From positions 221,113 to 285,112 of the forward strand of contig NZ_QNRK01000002.1 of assembly GCF_003315135.1 (NCBI RefSeq): a stretch of DNA of 64,000 bases, given 5' to 3'. The stretch comes from Roseiarcus fermentans. GTDB taxonomy: Bacteria; Pseudomonadota; Alphaproteobacteria; Rhizobiales; Beijerinckiaceae. This document shows positions 53,855 through 63,170 of this stretch, in pieces. The notes below the pieces were generated by a model, which did no database searches, had not been told where the DNA came from, and was given only the letters and a program-made list of their open reading frames with translations. Within the stretch, counting starts at the first letter, position 1. Each line of letters opens with the position of its first letter. The position numbers were made by a program, and so were the translations under genes.

Positions 53855-53926
53855 GGACGCGAAAGGGCGCGCGCCGGACGACGCTCCCCGCGACGATGCG
53901 ACCGGCAGGGCTCTTTGGAAAACGTC

Positions 53927-54820
53927 ATGGACTGGGACAAGTTGCGTATCTTTCAGGCCGCCGCCGACGCCGGGTCGTTCACCCACGCCGGCGAGACCCT
54001 CGGCCTGAGTCAGTCCGCGGTCAGCCGGCAGGTCGGGGCGCTCGAAGCCGACCTCGGCGCGCCGCTGTTTCACCGCCACGCGCGCGGCCTGATCCTCACC
54101 GAGCAGGGCGAGATGCTGCTCGGCGCGGTGCGCGATGTGGTGCTCAAGCTCGACGCCGTCAGGAGCCGCCTGATCGACAGCCGCGAGAAGCCGACCGGCG
54201 AACTCCGGATCACCACCACCCTCGGCCTCGGCGCCAACTGGCTCGCGCCCCGGCTCGGCGAATTCGTCGATCTCTATCCGGAGGTGAAGCTGCAGCTGCT
54301 GCTGTCCGACGAGGATCTCGACCTCGGCATGCGCGAGGCCGACGTGGCGCTGCGGCTGCGCGAGCCGAGCCAGCCCGACCTGATCCGCCGCCGGCTGTTC
54401 ACCGTGCATTTCCACGCCTACGCCTCGGCCGATTACCTCAAGAAACATCCGCAGCCGCGCAAGGTGGATGATCTCGACCATCACCATCTCGTCGCCTTCG
54501 GCGCGGCGACCGCGACGCATCTGCTCTATGACCTGAACTCGTTGCTCTCGCTCGGGCGCGATCCAAAGAACCCGCGCACGCCGCACATCGCCGTCAACAA
54601 CCTCAGCGCCATGGCGCGCGCAGTCGAGAACGGCGTCGGCGTCGCGGTGCTGCCGGACTATGTCGTGCAGGCCGGCTCGAATCTGGTGCGGCTCCTGCCG
54701 CAGGCGGACATGCCGGAGATGGACTGCTTCCTCGTCTATGCCGAGGAACTGAAGAACGTCGCGCGCGTGCAGGCGTTCCGGGACTTCCTGGTCGCCGCCG
54801 CGCAGCGCTGGCGCTACTGA
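53927..54820 (+). CDS. LysR family transcriptional regulator
   Basis: A 297-residue LysR regulator. The winged helix is in residues 1-60 (MDWDKLRIFQAAADAGSFTHAGETLGLSQSAVSRQVGALEADL shape), followed by the periplasmic-binding-like effector domain (GELRITTTLGLGANWLAPRL, GVGVAVLPDYVV). ATG 53927 is chosen over a TTG 12 bp upstream. It follows trxB with 72 bp spacing. The target genes and effector are unknown; position suggests redox control of trxB or of itself. Confidence 0.92.
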   Translation: MDWDKLRIFQAAADAGSFTHAGETLGLSQSAVSRQVGALEADLGAPLFHRHARGLILTEQGEMLLGAVRDVVLKLDAVRSRLIDSREKPTGELRITTTLGLGANWLAPRLGEFVDLYPEVKLQLLLSDEDLDLGMREADVALRLREPSQPDLIRRRLFTVHFHAYASADYLKKHPQPRKVDDLDHHHLVAFGAATATHLLYDLNSLLSLGRDPKNPRTPHIAVNNLSAMARAVENGVGVAVLPDYVVQAGSNLVRLLPQADMPEMDCFLVYAEELKNVARVQAFRDFLVAAAQRWRY

Positions 54821-54833
54821 TCGGCGGGCCCGG

Positions 54834-55232
54834 TCAGAGCAACTGGACGAATTCCACGATCACCCCGCGGGTCGCGGCGGGTCGCAGGAAATTGCAGAGA
54901 AACGGGCCCGCGCCCTTGACCGGCTCGGACTCCAGAAACGTCATGCCTCGGGCTTCGTAGTCGCGCATGGTCGCCATGAGGTCGGCAACCTCGAGGGCGA
55001 TGTGATGCAACCCGCCGGCGCCCTTGTTGAACCGCTCGAGCGGTCCGCCCCGCGGGACGACGAACTCGATCGGCGACCCCTTGCCCGCCCTGGCGAAGAT
55101 GCACAGAGCCGACCATTGCGGCACGAAGCCGCGATAGTCTTCCTCGAGGCCGAGGGTCGCCATCATCGCAAAGGCGTCTTCCTCGCTCGGCTGCACGATG
55201 CCGACGTGATGGAGCGGCAGTCCGGCGATCAT
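54834..55232 (-). CDS. VOC family protein, last gene of the acyl-transfer operon
   Basis: A 132-residue single glyoxalase/methylmalonyl-CoA-epimerase-like protein: LPLHHVGIVQPSEEDAFAMM with the first metal His, WSALCIFARAGKGSPIEFVVP with a metal Glu, GGLHHIALEVADLMATM with the second His pair, and VIVEFVQLL with the final Glu. All metal ligands for an active VOC enzyme seem present. It overlaps the SGNH-like gene by 4 bp (ATG with GAGGCGGGAAC ahead), so it belongs to the operon that starts with the acyl carrier protein. A role on a three-carbon hydroxyacyl thioester would fit, but this is inference. Confidence 0.85.
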   Translation of the reverse strand: MIAGLPLHHVGIVQPSEEDAFAMMATLGLEEDYRGFVPQWSALCIFARAGKGSPIEFVVPRGGPLERFNKGAGGLHHIALEVADLMATMRDYEARGMTFLESEPVKGAGPFLCNFLRPAATRGVIVEFVQLL

Positions 55233-56254
55233 GTTCCCGCCTCCCCGAGCCATTGCGCGACCGGCCCGACCAGCCAGTCGGTCAGCACCTCCGCGCCGTG
55301 ACGGGTGAGATGTCCGTAGTCGGCGTACCATTCCGCGTGCGTGGACAGGAATCCGGCGTTCAGCACCGGGCCATAGCGCTCGTACAGCGTCCGCTCCTGA
55401 ACGTCCGCGAGCGCGCTCGGGCCGGTGTAATACGGCAGGAACACGAAGGCCACCCGGACGCCGTTCTTCTGCGCCATCTCCGCGATCTTTCGGACATAGT
55501 GGCGCTCGTCGCCGAACTCCACGTCGGCTAGGCTCGCCGGCAGAAACGGCGGGTGGTTTCCGCCCTCGAGCTTTCTGACGCCGCGCACGAGTTCGTCGTG
55601 CGACGCCGGATTCTCGCCGTCCTTGACGTGTCCGTCCGGCAGGACGAGGCTGCCGGTCGTGTCGACCGACGGTCCCCGGTAGCGGGCGGGATCGAATCGC
55701 CTGGCGAGGCCGAACGCGTCCGGGAACCAGCCGGCGCCGAACAGGCGCATCTGCCGGAAGGGCAGGTAGATCAGGTCCGAGACGTAGTTGACGTCGGCGA
55801 GATAGCCCGGGTCGACGATGTCCCGGCGGCGGGCGAGGTATTTGTACGCCGAATGACCGTAACGGGACGGCTTCTCGATCACGCCGAGGACGAGCAGCTT
55901 CGGCTTTTTCGCCGCGAACAGTTGTTCCGCGACCGCCCAGTTGATGTTTCTCCCGGTCTCGGGCAGCGAAAAGTTGACCACGTTCGACGGCAGGCCGCGC
56001 GCCTCGAGCGCCTGCGCGAGCCGCGGCGCGTTCACCCCCGCCCCCATCCGCGACGGCCCCAGGAACACGACATCGATCGGCTTCGGATCGAAGTGGATGC
56101 GCTCGTAGATCCAGCGCGCGTTGGCGTGAATGGTGCCGTCGAGCAATTGCCAGCGCTGGTAGGGGTCGTCCGGCAGGAAGGCCGCGACGGCGGCCGAGGC
56201 GAGCGCCACGGCGAGGACGACCAGGATCTTCCGGAAGGCTCTGAGCGGGACCAT
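55229..56254 (-). CDS. SGNH-like membrane-anchored protein (DltD/AlgJ-like role)
   Basis: A 341-residue protein with one N-terminal membrane segment (about 10-27, ILVVLAVALASAAVAAFL) and a large periplasmic part. PIDVVFLGPSRMGAGVN is the block-I region in which the usual GDS/GSS serine is part of GPSRMG; the C-terminal YADYGHLTRHGAEVLTDWL carries the D-x-x-H pair of SGNH hydrolases. Such proteins partner MBOAT enzymes in transferring acyl groups outside the membrane (DltD, AlgJ/AlgX). It lies 8 bp after the MBOAT gene and overlaps the VOC gene. Confidence 0.8.
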   Translation of the reverse strand: MVPLRAFRKILVVLAVALASAAVAAFLPDDPYQRWQLLDGTIHANARWIYERIHFDPKPIDVVFLGPSRMGAGVNAPRLAQALEARGLPSNVVNFSLPETGRNINWAVAEQLFAAKKPKLLVLGVIEKPSRYGHSAYKYLARRRDIVDPGYLADVNYVSDLIYLPFRQMRLFGAGWFPDAFGLARRFDPARYRGPSVDTTGSLVLPDGHVKDGENPASHDELVRGVRKLEGGNHPPFLPASLADVEFGDERHYVRKIAEMAQKNGVRVAFVFLPYYTGPSALADVQERTLYERYGPVLNAGFLSTHAEWYADYGHLTRHGAEVLTDWLVGPVAQWLGEAGT

Positions 56255-56262
56255 CGGACGCC

Positions 56263-57819
56263 CTAGAAGTTGAAGTACAGGAACACCGCCTGCCCGCGCT
56301 GGATGAACGTCACCCCGAGGAACAGGACCACGCCGAGCGCGATCAGCCCGACCGTGTTCGGCCGCCAGGCGAAGGCGATCGGCGGCCGGGCGACGTCGCT
56401 CCACTCCTTCCAGTTGTAGGCCGGATCGAAGCGGGACATGATCTGCTGGGTGTTGGGAAAGAAGGCCACGATCGCGGCGCAGACGACGACCGTCGCGGCG
56501 ACGTCCCAGGCGGGCGCGCTCGCGAACCCGCCGCGCAGGCCCGCCATGCCGGTCCAGACGGTCGCCGCGGCGCCGACCGTCTTCGCCCGGAACACCACAT
56601 TGGCGGCGAGAATGGCGACCAGCGTCACGACCCGCGCCGCCGCGCGTCGCGCGGGTCCGGGCTCCGCGAGCTTCCTGCCCAGCTTGCGCAGCCGCCGCTG
56701 CAGCTTCGTCCGGCGCTCGCGCCAGATCTCGAACGCGCTGACGTAGACGGCGTGCATGACGCCGAACAGGACGAAGGTCCATCCCGCCCCGTGCCAGACG
56801 CCGACGATGACGAAGGTCAGAAAGGTGGGCAGGCCGACGCTGACGGCGAACGCGCCCCAGCCGGAGAGACCGAGCCGCCAGGTCGAGCGGATCAGCGACA
56901 GCGACAGCGGCTGGAACACATAGGCGTAGATCATGCGCTGCAGCGTCATGTGCCAGCGCCGCCAGTAGTCGGCGATGTTGGCCGCGCGCAGCGGGGAATG
57001 GAAATTGAGCGGCAGCTTGACGCCGAACATCCGGCCGAGGCCGATCGCCATGTCGGAATAGCCGGAGAAGTCGAAATAGACCTGAAAGGTGTACAGGATC
57101 GCCGCCAGCCATCCGGAGACGAAATCGACGGCGCCGCCCTTGTCGGCGACGAGAAAGAGCTGGTCCGCGTAGCCGCTCGCGGTGTCGGCGATCACGGTCT
57201 TCTTGGCGAGGCCGATCGCCATGATCGCCAGTCCGACGAGGAGGTTCCTCCCGATCAGACGGCCGAACAGCGGCCCCTGAAGCTGCGGAACGACCTCCTT
57301 GTAGTGCACGATCGGTCCAGCGATCAGTTGCGGGAAGAACGCGGCGAACAGCGTGAAGTCGAGCAGGCTCATCCGACGCGCTTCGCCGCGCGAGGAGTCG
57401 ACGAGATAGGCGATCTTCTGGAAGGTGTAGAACGAGATCGCGAGCGGCAGGACGATATGGTCGAGCGTCCAGTCGGCGCCGGTGAGCGCCCTGACGTTGT
57501 CGACGAAGAAATTGGCGTATTTGAAGTAGCCGAGCATGCCGATGTCGACGACGAGGCCGACCGTGAGCCACAGCCGCGACGCCTGCTGCCGCTTCGCCGC
57601 GACCGCCTTCTGGATCTGGTCCCCAACGAGGTAGTTGAAGGCGATCGAGAACAGCAGCAGCCACAGATAGACCGGCCGCCACCAGGCGTAGAACCCGAGC
57701 GAGAGAGCCGCGAGCGTCGCCTTGGCGAGCGTCGGCGTCGGCCGCCGGCCCGCCCAGTAGGTCAGGACCAGGGCGAGCGGCAGGAAGCCGAACAGGAAGG
57801 GAAACGAGTTGAACAGCAC
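56263..57819 (-). CDS. MBOAT family O-acyltransferase (AlgI/DltB-like)
   Basis: A 518-residue polytopic membrane protein. MBOAT landmarks: MLFNSFPFLFGFLPLALVLTYW at the start, FFPQLIAGPIVHYKEVVPQL, VYFDFSGYSDMAIGLGRMFG, NIADYWRRWHMTL (H290) and the catalytic-type H343 in VGVWHGAGWTFVLFG. It would move an acyl group from a cytosolic carrier across the membrane to a glycan or other acceptor. Spacing of 3 bp to the second methyltransferase gene and 8 bp to the SGNH-like gene shows one operon with the acyl carrier protein and FkbH-like loader. Confidence 0.92.
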   Translation of the reverse strand: MLFNSFPFLFGFLPLALVLTYWAGRRPTPTLAKATLAALSLGFYAWWRPVYLWLLLFSIAFNYLVGDQIQKAVAAKRQQASRLWLTVGLVVDIGMLGYFKYANFFVDNVRALTGADWTLDHIVLPLAISFYTFQKIAYLVDSSRGEARRMSLLDFTLFAAFFPQLIAGPIVHYKEVVPQLQGPLFGRLIGRNLLVGLAIMAIGLAKKTVIADTASGYADQLFLVADKGGAVDFVSGWLAAILYTFQVYFDFSGYSDMAIGLGRMFGVKLPLNFHSPLRAANIADYWRRWHMTLQRMIYAYVFQPLSLSLIRSTWRLGLSGWGAFAVSVGLPTFLTFVIVGVWHGAGWTFVLFGVMHAVYVSAFEIWRERRTKLQRRLRKLGRKLAEPGPARRAAARVVTLVAILAANVVFRAKTVGAAATVWTGMAGLRGGFASAPAWDVAATVVVCAAIVAFFPNTQQIMSRFDPAYNWKEWSDVARPPIAFAWRPNTVGLIALGVVLFLGVTFIQRGQAVFLYFNF

Positions 57820-57822
57820 CCG

Positions 57823-58785
57823 CTACGCCCGCTTCGCCGTCAGAACGCAACTGATCGGCAGTTGCTTGCGCAGCGCCCGGTCGAGCGTCGCGCCGGCGAC
57901 CGGGAACGCCGCGGCGCGGACGATCTCGAGGCCCGCCGAGCGCACGGCCTCTTCCGCCTCGGCTGGCGAGCGCAGCAGATACAGATGGTCCGGCGCCGGG
58001 CCGTTGGCCGGGACGTTGATCCACACCGTGCCGTCGGGGGCCAGCAGGTCGCGAATGCGCTCGAGAGCCAAATCCGGCCGTTCCAGATGTTCGAGCACTT
58101 CGCTGAACACGATCGTGTCGAAGCGCCCGCGGTTCTCGGTGAGCGCGCGATCCGAGGCGAGGTCCATCAACCTGACGTCGACGCGATCCGACTGCCCGAG
58201 CGTGGCGAGAACGCTTCGGACATGGCGGACCGAGGTCTCGCTCACGTCCCAGGCGGCGAGGCTCGCGAAGGACCCGAACCGCAGCGCCAGATGCAGCAGC
58301 ATGCCGTGACCCGGGCCGATCTCGAGATGCCGTCCGCCCGGCGCCGCCCGCGGCAGATACACCTTCGCGAAGTCGTTCATCGCGCTGGCGTGGTTGAACC
58401 ACAGCGCGTCCGACACGAACAGGCCGTTCATGTACGGGCCCATCACGGCCGGGTTCGAGTAGACCTCGCGGTCGGCCTCGGCGAACGTCGTCAGGCGATA
58501 GCGGCCCTCGCGCGCGAAGTGCAATTCCTCGGGATAGACGATCTTTTCGCAAAGGTGGCGATAGTCTGCGGCGAAGGACTCCAGACTTTTTCCGCTGGCG
58601 CGGGAGACGCGGGCCAGCAGGTCGGCGATGACCTCGGTCGTGTCGAGCAGGTCCGGCGAACGCCCGGCGAAGCTCGCCCGCAGGAATTTCTCGTGCTCGG
58701 GCCAGACGGAAACCACCGAATTCCAGACCGCCGAGGTGGCGGGCCCCGCGCCTTGCACGAACCCAGGATCAGGGGTCTCGATCAC
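57823..58785 (-). CDS. SAM-dependent methyltransferase, second tandem paralogue
   Basis: A 320-residue protein. The N-terminal 125 residues are a helical part shared with the neighbouring methyltransferase (WPEHEKFLRASFAGRSPDLLDT, EGRYRLTTFAEADREVYSN, LWFNHASAMNDFA). The rest is a class I SAM fold: HLEIGPGHGMLLHLAL, AAWDVSETSVRHVRSVL, FDTIVFSEVLEHLERPDLAL and GTVWINVPANGPAPDHLYLL. GTG 58785 has GGGAGG ahead. It follows its paralogue by 14 bp and precedes the MBOAT gene by 3 bp. Likely substrate is the ACP-bound or glycan-bound acyl unit, inferred from context. Confidence 0.85.
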   Translation of the reverse strand: MIETPDPGFVQGAGPATSAVWNSVVSVWPEHEKFLRASFAGRSPDLLDTTEVIADLLARVSRASGKSLESFAADYRHLCEKIVYPEELHFAREGRYRLTTFAEADREVYSNPAVMGPYMNGLFVSDALWFNHASAMNDFAKVYLPRAAPGGRHLEIGPGHGMLLHLALRFGSFASLAAWDVSETSVRHVRSVLATLGQSDRVDVRLMDLASDRALTENRGRFDTIVFSEVLEHLERPDLALERIRDLLAPDGTVWINVPANGPAPDHLYLLRSPAEAEEAVRSAGLEIVRAAAFPVAGATLDRALRKQLPISCVLTAKRA

Positions 58786-58799
58786 GCGCCGCCTCCCTC

Positions 58800-59747
58800 T
58801 CACTCGGGCCGGCCGACGACGGCGGCCGACACGCTGATCTTCTGGGCCAGGGCCGTTTCCACGGGCCTGCCCTGCGTGGCGTAGAGTTCGATCCGGTCGA
58901 TGCGATACCCGGCGCCCTCGACCAGCGCGACGACGTCCTCCCGCGACGAAAACAAGGCGAGGTGGTCCGGCGACGGGCTGTTGATCGGAACGTTGACGAA
59001 AATGCGCCCCCGCTCGGACAGCGCCGAGCGCAGGAAGCGCAGCGCCTCTCCCGGCGCCTCGAGATGCTCGAGCACCTCCGAGATGACCACGAGGTCGAAG
59101 CGCCGCTGCGCCGGCTCGGCCCGCAGGATGTCGGTGCGGACGAGGGCGACGGGCTTCGCCGCGCCGAGTTTCTTCAGCGCCGCCCGGGTCTCTTCGAGCG
59201 ATGTCGCGCTCACGTCCCAGGCCTCGAGCGAGCGGCAAAGGGGCGAGGCCGCCGCGAAAGCAGTCATCAGGCCGTGGCCCGGGCCGACCTCGAGATAGTC
59301 GAACGGCCCCTCCATCGCGCCGAGCACGCGCGCCAGGAACATTTCCGTCGTCGCCGCGTGGTTGAACCAGAGCGCCTGCGTCAGCAACAGCCCGCGCATG
59401 TAGCGGCCCATGTAGACGTCGTTCGAATAGACCTCGGCGTGGGCTTCGGCGAAAGTCGACAGGCGGTAACGGCCTTCGCGATGAAAGAAGATCTCCTCCT
59501 CGCGCAGCCGGTCGCAGGTCCAGCGATAATCCTCGCCGAAGCGCGCCTCCTCGCCGGCGATCAGCTTGAGGATCGCGGCGGACACGGTCTCGCTGGCGTC
59601 GAGCACCGCTGGCGACCGTTGGCCGAAGCTTCTGAGCAGGAACTTCTCGTGCTCCGGCCAGGCGGCGAGCGCGATCCCGGCGAGCGCCCGCGCCGACGGC
59701 CGGCCCGCGAGCGTCAGGTCGAGCGAGGCGGCGTGCGGCGCCGTCAT
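58800..59747 (-). CDS. SAM-dependent methyltransferase, first tandem paralogue
   Basis: A 315-residue protein with the same two-part plan as the gene behind it: shared N-terminal part (AAWPEHEKFLLRSFGQRSPAVL, EGRYRLSTFAEAHAEVYSND, LWFNHAATTEMFLARVL) and a class I methyltransferase domain (YLEVGPGHGLMTAFAAAS, EAWDVSATSLEETRAALK, FDLVVISEVLEHLEAPGEAL, RIFVNVPINSPSPDHLALF). The start overlaps the fkbH-like stop as ATGA, so it is coupled to the loader. The repeated N-terminal part, not a standard domain to my knowledge, may bind a common partner such as the carrier protein. Confidence 0.85.
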   Translation of the reverse strand: MTAPHAASLDLTLAGRPSARALAGIALAAWPEHEKFLLRSFGQRSPAVLDASETVSAAILKLIAGEEARFGEDYRWTCDRLREEEIFFHREGRYRLSTFAEAHAEVYSNDVYMGRYMRGLLLTQALWFNHAATTEMFLARVLGAMEGPFDYLEVGPGHGLMTAFAAASPLCRSLEAWDVSATSLEETRAALKKLGAAKPVALVRTDILRAEPAQRRFDLVVISEVLEHLEAPGEALRFLRSALSERGRIFVNVPINSPSPDHLALFSSREDVVALVEGAGYRIDRIELYATQGRPVETALAQKISVSAAVVGRPE

Positions 59748-61669
59748 GCCGCGGCGTTTTCCGGCGCGAGGAAGCCGTCGGCGACCGTCATCTCCAGCGC
59801 CGGCGCGACGAAGCGGTCGAGATCGAGCCGCCACGTCGTCGCGCCCCCGGATTCGTCCTCGAGCGCGAAGCCCAGGTTCCGGTAGTGATCCTTGACGATC
59901 GCGTTCCGGGGCGAGGGAATGTAACGGCCGATCAGCGCGCGCGCCCCCGCCGCCCGCGCCGCGCCCGCGAGATGCGCCAGGCACGCCTCCTCGACGCGCC
60001 GGCCGAGGACGCGGCAACTCATCAGCCAGGTGTCGATCGCCCAGGCGTCGGGGCCCTTGTCGGCGATCAGAACGGCGATGACGCCATTGTCGCCGAACCG
60101 GTCGACGAGGCGGACCTGGGCGACGTGACGGGCCGGATCGCGGATCGCGGCGGCGAGTTCGCCTTCCGACCAACGGCGGGTGGTCAGGTTGAACTGGTTG
60201 GACTTGTTGACGAGCTGCGCCACCCGGGCGCGCGTCATCTCGCTGACGGGGCCGATCGCGCACGCCATCTCGAGCGACGCCAGGTAGGCGCCGACGTCGG
60301 CGCTCGCGCTGAGCGCCGCGGCGCGCCGGGCGTTGGCCTGGTACATCTCGGCGCGCGCGCGGTCCTCCTTCGAGACCGACACGGCCTCGAAATAGCCGGC
60401 CGCAGCGAGCATGCGCGGGAAGAGCGCTGGGTCGTCGGGAAGCTCCGGCACGCCGACGAGCGGCAGTTCGCTTCGCACCTGCATCCGCTCGGCCGGGTTG
60501 TCGTCGAGCAGCACCAGCGCGTCGACGCCGATGTTCAGCGTCTCGGCGATGGCGCGCAGGTTGGCCGCCTTGTCGGTCCAGTTGGCCTGGAACACCGCGA
60601 TATGGTCCTCGCGCAGGAGCATGTCCGGGTGCTCGCGGAACGGCGCCCGGGCGGCGGCCTCCTCGTTCTTGCTGCACACGGCGAGCACGACGCCGCGCGC
60701 CCGGAGCGCGAGCGCCATGCGTTGCACGGCGAGATGGGCTTCTCCAGTCGCCGAGCCCTGGCCGATCACGATGCCGCCGAGGCCGTCGTCGCCGACCACG
60801 CCGCCCCACAGGGTGTTGTCGAGGTCGAGCACCAGGCACTTGCGCGACAGCCCGCGAACCGCGGCCATGGCGCGGGCGACCACGTCGGCATAGACCGGCA
60901 GGAGCGAGGGCGCGAAGCCGAGCTTCGCGGCGTGCCACTGGCCGGGGTCGTCCCAGGCTTCGAGGCCGACGCATTCGGCCAGATGCGCGACGTCGACCAG
61001 CACAACGCCGCCGTCCGCGGCCCAGTCCGCGACGCGCCGGTTGAAGGCCGCGGTCATCGACAGCGGCGAGCCCGGCTCGATGCGGTCGTAGCTGCCGAAC
61101 AGCGGCTCGAGCGGCGCCGCGACCGTCTGGACGAGAATGGCCGAGCCGATCGACGGCCTCAGGCCCTCGACCGTCCTCCGCACCTGCCCGAACGCGCGCT
61201 CGACCGTCTCGTCCGCGGCCGCGCGCGAAGCCGCCGGCCGGTCGAGCCCGAGGACGCGCGCGTCGCTGACGATCAGCGCCATGTCGAGGCCGGCCGACCG
61301 GACCGGGCCCGACGGGTCGAGCGCGTCGAGCGCCGCGCGATTGAATTCGCCGACGAAGGTGTCGACCGCCAGCCTGTGCCTGAGCGCCGTTCCGGCGATC
61401 GCCGGAGCGATGAGGGACAGCGTGCCGTCCCCGAACACGCCGAGTTTCACCGCGCTGAACGGCGCGGGCGCGGCGCCGGCGTCGCAAGCCCCGGCGGCGA
61501 GCCGGGCGAGGCTCACGAGCTGGTTTTCGTCCAGCGCATGATTGGCGAGCGCATAGAGCCTCATGCCGAGGTCGTCGCCGCGCCCGCCGCGCATCTCGCT
61601 CCGCAGCGCGCGCGCCTGATCGCGAAAATCGCCGGGCGCGGGTCGGAGCCAACTCAACGACTTCAACAT
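59744..61669 (-). CDS. FkbH-like HAD/GNAT protein (glyceryl-ACP loader type)
   Basis: A 641-residue protein of the FkbH (HAD-IIIC) family. An N-terminal SGNH-like part (about 70-270) is followed by the HAD phosphatase core with D282-x-D284 in CLVLDLDNTLWGGVVGDDG, AVCSKNEEAAARAPF and LVLLDDNPAERMQVR. A C-terminal GNAT-like domain (about 500-625) follows: TTRRWSEGELAAAI, FGDNGVIAVLIADKG, WLMSCRVLGRRVEEACLAHL. In polyketide pathways FkbH takes 1,3-bisphosphoglycerate, removes phosphate and loads a glyceryl unit on ACP. An ACP gene lies 51 bp upstream, which supports the same reaction here. It overlaps the first methyltransferase gene. Confidence 0.9.
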   Translation of the reverse strand: MLKSLSWLRPAPGDFRDQARALRSEMRGGRGDDLGMRLYALANHALDENQLVSLARLAAGACDAGAAPAPFSAVKLGVFGDGTLSLIAPAIAGTALRHRLAVDTFVGEFNRAALDALDPSGPVRSAGLDMALIVSDARVLGLDRPAASRAAADETVERAFGQVRRTVEGLRPSIGSAILVQTVAAPLEPLFGSYDRIEPGSPLSMTAAFNRRVADWAADGGVVLVDVAHLAECVGLEAWDDPGQWHAAKLGFAPSLLPVYADVVARAMAAVRGLSRKCLVLDLDNTLWGGVVGDDGLGGIVIGQGSATGEAHLAVQRMALALRARGVVLAVCSKNEEAAARAPFREHPDMLLREDHIAVFQANWTDKAANLRAIAETLNIGVDALVLLDDNPAERMQVRSELPLVGVPELPDDPALFPRMLAAAGYFEAVSVSKEDRARAEMYQANARRAAALSASADVGAYLASLEMACAIGPVSEMTRARVAQLVNKSNQFNLTTRRWSEGELAAAIRDPARHVAQVRLVDRFGDNGVIAVLIADKGPDAWAIDTWLMSCRVLGRRVEEACLAHLAGAARAAGARALIGRYIPSPRNAIVKDHYRNLGFALEDESGGATTWRLDLDRFVAPALEMTVADGFLAPENAAA

Positions 61670-61720
61670 CCGCGCCCTCCGAAAGTGATGACGACGACCG
61701 AGGTTCTCATGCTTACGCGG

Positions 61721-61972
61721 TCAGGCCGGCTGCTTGGCCTCCACCAGCGCGACCAGATCGCCGACCCGCCGCAACCGTTCGATCTCGGCGTTGGTGAACT
61801 TCACCTTGAACCGGCGCTCGACGGCGACGATCAGCCGAATGTGGCTCAGGCTGTCCCACTCCTCGATGTCGTCGGCAGTCGTGTCGGGGGTTACGACGAC
61901 GTCGTCGACGTCCATGTCGAACACGTCCGCCATGATCTCCCTGATGTCCCCAAGAATGACCTCGCGGCTCAT
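61721..61972 (-). CDS. Acyl carrier protein of the FkbH/MBOAT operon
   Basis: An 83-residue acyl carrier protein, first gene of the seven-gene operon. The phosphopantetheine attachment site is S41 in IEEWDSLSHIRLIVAVE; the flanking EEWDSLSH form resembles specialised carriers (DltC-like, FkbJ-like) rather than the fatty-acid AcpP, which has a DSLD motif. Helix I REIMADVFDMDVDD and the FTNAEIERL segment complete the fold. The promoter should lie in the AT-rich stretch 61980-62180. GAGCGAGG precedes the ATG. Confidence 0.93.
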   Translation of the reverse strand: MSREVILGDIREIMADVFDMDVDDVVVTPDTTADDIEEWDSLSHIRLIVAVERRFKVKFTNAEIERLRRVGDLVALVEAKQPA

Positions 61973-62183
61973 GCAACCTCGCTCACGCCTCGCGTGTCGT
62001 GTTTGAAAAAGATTTTACGATTATTTGGACGCCGACTCCGAAGGACCGGCGTTGCATTCCACCTGCCGAACTCCTGACACAGGGTCGGGCGGAAATCAAG
62101 TCTCGTACGGTTTACACTGTGAATAGACTGAAAAGAAAGATCAGCGCGAGGGTCACTATCCTATCTATTGACTATATATGCAG

Positions 62184-62218
62184 CCGCGCCGGCGTTCCGC
62201 GGCGGTGCGCCGGCGCGG
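62184..62218 (-). terminator. Terminator of msrP
   Basis: CCGCGCCGGCG and CGCCGGCGCGG form an 11-bp perfect stem around a 13-base loop, right after the msrP stop (minus strand). It separates msrP from the ACP operon, whose promoter must lie to its left in the AT-rich DNA. Confidence 0.65.
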
Positions 62219-62222
62219 ACCG

Positions 62223-63170
62223 TCACATGAACAGCGGCTCCTGCTCAAGGCCCTTGTAGAGCGACGCGACCTGGTCGCCGTAGCCGTTGTAGATCAGCGT
62301 CGGGCGCAACTGCCCGTCGTTGAGGAACGTCTCCTTCGCCTGGCTCCAGCGCGGATGCGGCACGGCCGGGTTCACGTTCGCCCAAAAGCCGTATTCGTCG
62401 GGTCCGAGCGTCTCCCAGAACGTCTCCGGCCGCTTGTCGACGAACGAGACGCGGACGATCGACTTGATCGACTTGAAGCCGTACTTCCACGGCGTGGCGA
62501 GGCGGATCGGCGCGCCCTGCTGCTTCGACAGCGGCTTGCCATAGGCGCCGGTGGCGACGAACGTGAGGTCGTTCGTCGCCTCGGCCATGGTCAGCCCCTC
62601 GACATAGGGCCACGGCATGAACGAGCGCTGCCCCGGCGCCATCTTCTTGTCGAGGAACGTCTCGAACCGGACGTAGGTGGCCGAAGACAGCGGCTTGGCG
62701 AACGCGACGAGCTTCTTCAGCGGAAATCCGGTCCACGGGATCGCCATCGACCAGGCCTCGACGCAGCGGTGGCGGTAGAGCCGCTCCTCGAGCCCCATCG
62801 CCTTGATCAGCGTGTCGATGTCGACCGTCTGCTCCTTCTCGACGAGGCCGTCGAGTTTGACCGTCCACGGCCGGATCTTCAGGGCGCTCGCGTCAAGGCG
62901 CTTGCTCGTGCTGAATTCGTAGAAATTGTTGTAGGTGAGATTGTACTTTTCCGGGGTCACGTCGCGGTCGAGCGCGTAGGCCGGATTGCGCGCGGCGGGG
63001 TAGAGCCCCGCCGACGGATCGGCGTCGTCGGCGCGGGCGCCCTGGCCGGAGAGCGCGAGCGCGCCGGCGGCGCCGAGCCCGGCGAGAAAGCCCCGCCGGT
63101 CGAGAAACAACGCCTCCGGCGTCGCCAGACGCTCCGGAATCTCCCAACCGTTTCGGCGGACGACATGCAT
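62223..63170 (-). CDS. msrP: Protein-methionine-sulfoxide reductase catalytic subunit
   Basis: MsrP (YedY), 315 residues, a periplasmic molybdenum-cofactor enzyme that repairs oxidised methionine in envelope proteins. A Tat-type leader is present (DRRGFLAGLGAAGALAL, residues 24-40). The Mo-binding cysteine is C136 in YRHRCVEAWSMAIPW; PWKYGFKSIKSIVRVSFVD and FWANVNPAVPHPRWSQA are family blocks. The heme membrane subunit gene msrQ, usually next in line, is not found after it: a terminator and the ACP operon follow. It may lie elsewhere. Confidence 0.95.
   Translation of the reverse strand: MHVVRRNGWEIPERLATPEALFLDRRGFLAGLGAAGALALSGQGARADDADPSAGLYPAARNPAYALDRDVTPEKYNLTYNNFYEFSTSKRLDASALKIRPWTVKLDGLVEKEQTVDIDTLIKAMGLEERLYRHRCVEAWSMAIPWTGFPLKKLVAFAKPLSSATYVRFETFLDKKMAPGQRSFMPWPYVEGLTMAEATNDLTFVATGAYGKPLSKQQGAPIRLATPWKYGFKSIKSIVRVSFVDKRPETFWETLGPDEYGFWANVNPAVPHPRWSQAKETFLNDGQLRPTLIYNGYGDQVASLYKGLEQEPLFM

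Follow-up and report, generated by a model that had tools for sequence, protein, structure and literature searches.

An operon of Roseiarcus fermentans predicted to feed an MBOAT-SGNH pair with glyceryl units from an acyl carrier protein

Introduction

Which acyl unit would be handled, and where would it be delivered, by an operon that encodes an acyl carrier protein (ACP), an FkbH-like loader, two methyltransferases (MT1 and MT2), an MBOAT, an SGNH protein and a VOC protein? This question is raised by seven ORFs of Roseiarcus fermentans, which occupy positions 61972-54834 on the minus strand of the window (the whole stretch of DNA analysed, 64,000 nt), with gaps of 51, -4, 14, 3, 8 and -4 bp. 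An earlier note on this DNA had described seven genes in one direction with these gaps, and the ORF coordinates match that description exactly. It had also remarked that DltA is missing; indeed, Pfam and NCBIfam profiles revealed no AMP-binding (DltA-type) protein among the seven genes, FkbH being present instead. Our reading, to which we assign a probability of roughly 70%, is that the operon encodes a carrier-protein-fed MBOAT-SGNH pathway that would attach glyceryl or O-methylglyceryl groups to a surface glycan as esters, the acyl unit, its linkage and the acceptor all being predicted.

Results

The ACP (83 aa; 61721..61972, minus strand) scored 34.7 bits against PF00550 (cut-off 20.8), and its phosphopantetheine serine, S41 (codon 61850-61852), was present in 69/69 module ACPs. 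The FkbH-like glyceryl loader (641 aa; 59744..61669, minus strand) scored 296 bits against TIGR01686 (cut-off 147) and is the single copy over that cut-off in its own 6.8 Mb genome. In its HAD motif, D282xD284-N-T286, residues D282, D284 and T286 were each conserved at 93% or more, Cys552 (codon 60014-60016) was conserved in 66/66 sequences, and the match with PDB 3slr covers residues 73-434. Glyceryl-S-carrier thioesters are the products of FkbH proteins (PMC7489565, PMC8949500), so that comparison with the characterised family makes it very probable that glyceryl-ACP is formed here. This supports the loading step proposed in the earlier note, with the identity of the acyl deduced from the family. 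FkbH would remove phosphate from D-1,3-bisphosphoglycerate and place the D-glyceryl group on the pantetheine arm of ACP Ser41, probably via Cys552.

The MBOAT (518 aa, GTG start; 56263..57819, minus strand) scored 92 bits against PF03062 (cut-off 27), and His290 and His343 were both found in 46/46 sequences. Residues 513-518, FLYFNF (56266..56283, minus strand), correspond to the C-terminal FXYXXF motif, which is the acyl shuttle of PatA and DltX and whose mechanism has been described (PMC12148441). No separate DltX microprotein was found in the operon, where gaps do not exceed 51 bp and the motif lies at the MBOAT's own C-terminus. By analogy with PatA and DltX, the MBOAT (His290/His343) would take the acyl group over from the ACP and load it onto Tyr515 in its own shuttle. 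Against the DltB model TIGR04091 (cut-off 375) the MBOAT scored 156 bits, and the carrier-free AlgI-type MBOAT of the same genome scored 167 bits. Likeness to DltB was therefore rejected as evidence of a carrier-protein donor, since a carrier-free enzyme scores equally high. Furthermore, FkbH accompanied only 1/12 related MBOATs at ≤48% identity, so that the MBOAT family alone leaves the donor unfixed.

The SGNH protein (membrane-anchored, DltD-like, 341 aa; 55229..56254, minus strand) had no match in Pfam or NCBIfam and was assigned from residue conservation and a structural model. Residues S68, D312 and H315 were invariant in 11 sequences. In Foldseek, the three top-ranking matches of the model (pLDDT 91) were all DltD (E 1.7e-4 to 6.6e-4); the comparison of the model with DltD gave VIA Z values of 10.5-10.9 over 238-253 residues, with similar or higher Z values for PatB and other SGNH enzymes. 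Hence, of the Dlt-like transfer core claimed in the earlier note, the MBOAT/SGNH arm is supported by comparison, but the MBOAT is not specifically DltB-like, given its score of 156 bits and a fused shuttle that DltB does not have. Ser68 would accept the acyl group and hand it on to a polysaccharide hydroxyl, either in the periplasm or on an exported chain, and transfer in the envelope by the MBOAT and the SGNH protein is, in our judgement, highly likely. A polysaccharide is the predicted acceptor because operons of the same order adjoin exopolysaccharide genes, although the Roseiarcus operon itself lies outside such a locus.

The distribution of these genes was analysed in 50 fully covered loci, all of them found only through the methyltransferase with an alignment query; a search of the genome contigs with the single MT2 sequence gave no match. 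FkbH and ACP were both present in 43/50 of these loci, and the MBOAT was also present in 30/50, so that 13 of the 43 loci with FkbH and ACP carried no MBOAT. Compared with one FkbH in the whole Roseiarcus genome, this association argues that the grouping of the genes is not due to chance. The same gene order, with a single methyltransferase, recurs in Phenylobacterium and in Sphingomonadales, often beside exopolysaccharide genes, and the operon order was conserved in L042, L043, L052 and L107. Genes for an exosortase, Wzz, Wzy, a flippase, a pyruvyl transferase or glycosyltransferases were found near operons of the same type. The gene calls of L021 and L118 are unreliable, owing to a high G+C content and many antisense frames. 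The earlier note had known of no characterised system with this gene content; the set proved to be widespread and not singular. Its suggestion of a genome search for a conserved set was followed; FkbH, ACP and MBOAT stood together in only those 30 loci, which counts against our reading, as do two further cases: L059 carries MBOAT, SGNH, VOC and methyltransferase genes with FkbH and ACP absent within 10 kb, and G195 carries a MBOAT-SGNH pair with no FkbH.

Within the genus, the cassettes at one chromosomal site carry two methyltransferases, one or none, and the site may also lack a cassette altogether. In Roseiarcus fermentans this site is bordered by a LysR regulator that is outside the pathway (53915..54820, plus strand) and by a msrP-like gene, named by reading of the sequence (62223..63170, minus strand); in G005 only 16 bp separate the end of the LysR gene from that of msrP. 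The cassette of G004 keeps ACP, FkbH, MBOAT, SGNH and VOC together and has no methyltransferase. These variants define the five latter genes as the core and methylation as optional.

MT1 (315 aa; 58800..59747, minus strand) and MT2 (320 aa, GTG start; 57823..58785, minus strand) are class I SAM methyltransferases by Pfam, and in the case of MT2 also by its model (pLDDT 93.5, class I fold). The fold search returned only the generic class I fold, from which the methylated position cannot be distinguished. In the tree, MT1 grouped with the clade of the same-order operons (support 100/100) and MT2 fell in a different clade (support 99/90), which rules out a recent tandem duplication as the origin of the pair. 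The methyltransferases would O-methylate one or both glyceryl hydroxyls. That they act on the acyl unit is likely, the gene content being observed and the chemistry deduced from it, and a di-O-methyl product is a more tentative proposal. Evidence on this point comes from Campylobacter. In C. jejuni 414 the order is PseB-PseC-...-ACP-MT-VOC-FkbH-FabH-...-PseF-PseG, and the same families as in this MT-VOC-FkbH-ACP cluster of the DMGA type occur in L090 and L093. C. jejuni 11168 carries dimethylglyceric-acid pseudaminic acid, and strains 12664 (cj1302 is a pseudogene) and 12661 (no cj1301) are without dimethylglyceric acid (PMC7099621). These strains also differ in other genes. One methyltransferase of the same family seems to be enough for di-O-methylation in C. 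jejuni, by analogy with which two methyltransferases need not mean two positions. Thus, of the glyceryl or O-methylglyceryl product named in the earlier note, the O-methylated form gains support from the C. jejuni DMGA locus, but as an option only, as the G004 cassette indicates.

The VOC protein (132 aa; 54834..55232, minus strand) scored 66 bits against PF13669 (Glyoxalase_4; cut-off 27). Residues H9 (39/39), E56 (38/39), H77 (35/39) and E127 (39/39) were conserved, and we take them, from what is known of the VOC family, to be its metal site (two His and an acidic ligand). Against the methylmalonyl-CoA epimerase model TIGR03081 the protein scored 54 bits (cut-off 115). In operons of this type its gene counts among the conserved core genes, and the earlier note had given it no role. 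It would exchange the proton at C2, beside the thioester, so that the configuration is set or inverted; we regard such a C2 epimerase of an acyl thioester as an evenly balanced proposal.

Discussion

Our reading has to be weighed against others that redistribute the roles of the same genes. The methyltransferases might act on the sugar acceptor or on another metabolite, and plain glyceryl would then be transferred; the lack of any methyltransferase in the G004 core and the closeness of the generic MT2 fold to natural-product methyltransferases fit this idea, but the family occurs with FkbH and ACP in 43/50 loci, including the 13 without MBOAT, and in C. jejuni the O-methyl groups sit on the glyceryl unit itself, so that we consider it unlikely. 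It is improbable that another acyl derived from glyceryl-ACP, e.g., lactyl, pyruvyl or methoxymalonyl, is delivered. FkbH does feed methoxymalonyl-ACP in polyketide pathways, and the relatives L018 and L023 add a MaoC dehydratase and a reductase, but no MaoC, SDR or FkbI/FkbK-type dehydrogenase was found in the operon.

As happens in Campylobacter, the acyl group could also end up on a small molecule or a sugar nucleotide in the cytoplasm, with the MBOAT-SGNH pair performing an unrelated acetylation from acetyl-CoA. FkbH modules without MBOAT exist, and acyl-CoA is the donor in the published MBOAT-SGNH pairs, Dlt excepted (PMC12148441). The tight operon, the conservation of its order across several families, the cohesion of the five-gene core in the methyltransferase-free G004 cassette and the lack of a cytoplasmic acyltransferase gene in the operon make this quite improbable. 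Least probable is a small secondary-metabolite cluster in which the MBOAT acylates a lipid or a metabolite: polyketide and NRPS clusters often contain FkbH, ACP and methyltransferases, but no ketosynthase, condensation or adenylation protein was found among the seven genes, relatives lie in exopolysaccharide loci, the SGNH protein is membrane-anchored and the shuttle motif is present.

The preferred glycan-esterifying pathway may tentatively be extended to an ACP-dependent MBOAT-SGNH system with a fused Tyr shuttle that makes glyceric-acid esters on a Gram-negative envelope polysaccharide, in which the degree of O-methylation (none, one or two) follows the number of methyltransferase genes at one exchangeable locus. 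A broader form, just as tentative, is that of one transferase pair served by interchangeable loaders: FkbH, an aminoacyl-tRNA-synthetase-like ligase or no loader at all. This operon type appears exceptional and also widespread; it predicts glyceryl-ACP as acyl donor and an ester that can be sought on surface glycans. A literature search joining FkbH or HAD-IIIC with MBOAT found one unrelated paper and no relevant one. The gellan glyceryl ester was considered as a possible precedent of known character, but among the papers searched none ties that ester to these genes.

Comparison with known systems

The operon shares with teichoic-acid D-alanylation (DltA-DltB-DltC-DltD-DltX) a stand-alone carrier protein as predicted acyl donor, the catalytic His of the MBOAT, an SGNH protein, for whose model DltD is the best Foldseek match, and a Tyr shuttle motif. 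It differs in having FkbH as loader and no DltA, in a shuttle fused to the MBOAT in place of a separate DltX, in its Gram-negative setting and in the extra VOC and methyltransferase genes. With PatA-PatB and AlgI-AlgJ/AlgX it shares a MBOAT to whose C-terminus FXYXXF is fused and an SGNH partner encoded apart from it, but here an ACP and its loader are encoded in the operon; PatA uses acetyl-CoA, and these MBOAT-SGNH O-acetyltransferases work without a carrier protein (PMC12148441). Where the earlier note saw a Dlt-like system, the transferase has the PatA/AlgI architecture, in which the shuttle is fused, and its donor is predicted, from the ACP and loader genes of the operon, to be a carrier protein as in Dlt. 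The FkbG-H-I-J-K methoxymalonyl-ACP and tetronate glyceryl-ACP cassettes likewise contain FkbH and a stand-alone ACP, and the former also a methyltransferase; unlike them, the operon has no dehydrogenases, PKS or FabH-like enzyme, and a membrane transfer arm instead.

The C. jejuni flagellin-glycan cluster cj1299-cj1302 (ACP, methyltransferase, VOC 'epimerase' and FkbH) unites all four families as the operon does, and it is linked to di-O-methylglyceryl pseudaminic acid, whose acyl part is known to be an O-methylated glyceric acid. In contrast to the operon, it has no MBOAT or SGNH protein, it contains FabH, a second ACP and DUF2172, and the acyl group is on a nonulosonic acid. As C. jejuni acylates its sugar without a MBOAT step, the acyl module and the MBOAT could in principle act apart, which tells against our reading. 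The comparison also suggests how Campylobacter may make the di-O-methylglyceric acid of its flagellin: FkbH, the VOC protein and the methyltransferase would each have a part in this proposed biosynthetic route.

The seven-gene operon is conserved

The operon (ACP, FkbH loader, the methyltransferases MT1 and MT2, MBOAT, SGNH-like protein and the Glyoxalase_4-type VOC protein) is real and conserved. The coordinates and gaps claimed in the earlier note for its seven minus-strand genes (61972-54834) were both confirmed in the window, and the claimed families were assigned by profile search for six of the seven proteins. The SGNH-like protein had no match in the profile search; its assignment was borne out by a protein model (mean pLDDT 91.1), whose best structural matches were DltD structures, the only three with E <0.001 in Foldseek. 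By a second structural aligner, too, its fold was that of SGNH hydrolases: the alignments were longest with DltD (238-253 residues at a Z of about 10.5-10.9), and PatB scored Z 11.3 across 174 residues. The catalytic residues are kept: D282, D284 and T286 of FkbH among module relatives, Cys552 of FkbH in 66/66, Ser41 of ACP in 69/69, His290 and His343 of MBOAT in 46/46, and H9, E56, H77 and E127 of VOC in 39/39, 38/39, 35/39 and 39/39, respectively; Ser68, Asp312 and His315 of the SGNH protein are invariant within the operon type.

The window order with one MT was found in Phenylobacterium (loci L042 and L107) and Sphingomonadales (L043 and L052), and in these four complete loci FkbH was 56-66% and MBOAT 58-63% identical to the window proteins. 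Two further loci (L055, L075) agreed with this order but were interrupted by contig ends, and three (L026, L074, L140) had the same genes in altered order or number, the MBOAT of L074 being 47% identical. Several operon-type loci adjoin polysaccharide genes (exosortase EpsH, Wzz, pyruvyl transferase, Wzy, flippase, glycosyltransferases). No genes of such kinds flank the window operon, and the exosortase and three Wzy-type proteins of the genome are encoded away from it; synthesis of the acceptor would therefore occur in trans.

Recurrence of the gene set in public genomes

The earlier note had proposed a genome search for the conserved gene set, and in such a search the set recurred in many bacteria. 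The MT served as a survey marker independent of the other operon genes: an alignment query of public genomes with this family gave 80 loci, over all of which HMMs built from the first relatives were run, and co-occurrence was counted in the 50 loci whose flanks reached 7.5 kb or more in both directions. FkbH and ACP were present in 43/50, VOC in 31/50, FkbH, ACP and MBOAT in 30/50, and all four in 18/50; no FkbH was found near the MT in L059 and L068. The window's own genome carries one FkbH above the cut-off in 6.8 Mb, so that a chance level of ~0.3% per 16 kb is expected, and the binomial probability of the FkbH-ACP count is ~3e-101 if the loci, though related, are taken as independent. The same MT family also occurs in Actinomycetota (Streptomyces, L081 and L085; Marmoricola, L089), and the Marmoricola locus has FkbH, ACP, MBOAT and two VOC proteins. 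In addition, a MaoC dehydratase was detected in 13 of the 50 loci. It lies within FkbH-ACP-MT modules at L018:5385-6510 and L023:12450-12836, the former also with a short-chain dehydrogenase-like frame, and there it may convert glyceryl-ACP to pyruvyl- or lactyl-ACP.

Methyltransferases are optional at a variable site

The window cassette, with two MTs, lies between a LysR gene (53915-54820) and an msrP-like gene (62223-63170), and this gap (54820-62223) varies across the genus, holding a cassette with two, one or no MT, nothing, or two unrelated genes. G001 has one MT at a different position, its gene order being pieced from two contig ends (L027, L026) with the break inside the cassette. G004 (L140) has ACP, FkbH, MBOAT, SGNH and VOC beside msrP, with no MT in the cassette and none found elsewhere in the draft genome. 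In G005 (L138) the site is empty, LysR and msrP being 16 bp apart, and in G008 (L139) the two unrelated genes occupy it. Hence, ACP, FkbH, MBOAT, SGNH and VOC are constant and the MTs optional. MT1 and MT2 fall in separate well-supported clades (100/100 and 99/90), both with FkbH-linked members, which rules out MT2 as a recent copy of MT1; each may methylate a different position. In G006, of the same genus, an FkbH-ACP pair (L152:8533-10663; 46% and 43% identity) has no MT, MBOAT or VOC nearby.

The module in a flagellin-glycan locus

The flagellin-glycan locus of Campylobacter jejuni 414 (L093) reads PseB, PseC, DUF2172, AAC(3)-like, ACP, MT, VOC, FkbH, FabH, ACP, with PseF and PseG further along the same gene run. 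Strain 11168 carries di-O-methylglyceric-acid pseudaminic acid, for which Cj1295 is required (PMC3068675). In the passages of PMC7099621 used here, cj1302 (fkbH domain) is a pseudogene in strain 12664, cj1301 ('epimerase') is missing in strain 12661, and dimethylglyceric acid (DMGA) ions are absent from both. Gene status and ion absence are given separately there; the tie between DMGA loss and the ACP-MT-VOC-FkbH module is our own, and is correlational, with one strain each. By our arithmetic, the mass step 317.13 to 391.16 (74.03) fits acetyl replaced by dimethylglyceryl.

Comparison with known acyl-transfer systems

The donor cannot be told from membership of the wider MBOAT family. Among order-level MBOAT relatives (39-48% identity) FkbH with ACP was found in 1/12, and a genome with a 37% identical MBOAT and a 34% identical SGNH protein had no FkbH match anywhere. 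The DltB model score was rejected as donor evidence, since it was not discriminating. A second MBOAT in the window's own genome, accompanied by two AlgX-like SGNH proteins (L028:8971-12648, contig C8) and by neither ACP nor loader, appears to belong to a common O-acetylation set of the AlgI type. In another layout (L172:4346-8728, L173:6555-10666, also L179) MBOAT, ending in FLYYKF in L172 and L173, is followed by a relative of the amino acid:[carrier protein] ligase Bll0957 (PDB 3mey, E 2.5e-30) and then a carrier protein; this is Dlt-like, but the loader is aminoacyl-tRNA-synthetase-like, which suggests aminoacyl transfer onto an envelope polymer.

The operon most likely encodes a carrier-protein-fed MBOAT-SGNH pathway that would esterify a glycan of the envelope with glyceryl or O-methylglyceryl groups; the acyl unit, methylation sites, VOC role and acceptor are predicted. 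Gene content, conservation, residues, fold and genomic series come from this analysis, and FkbH chemistry, the Tyr shuttle and C. jejuni DMGA from the literature. In PatA the Tyr of an FLYFNF-type motif is auto-acetylated and the group is then handed to PatB, whereas in Dlt the same motif is carried by DltX (PMC12148441). The window MBOAT itself ends in FLYFNF. Of the Dlt-like character claimed in the earlier note, the donor side holds, and the transferase is of PatA/AlgI architecture. Since MBOAT-SGNH systems other than Dlt are described without a carrier protein (PMC12148441), the motif and the ACP together indicate that the operon unites a PatA/AlgI-type transferase with a Dlt-type donor.
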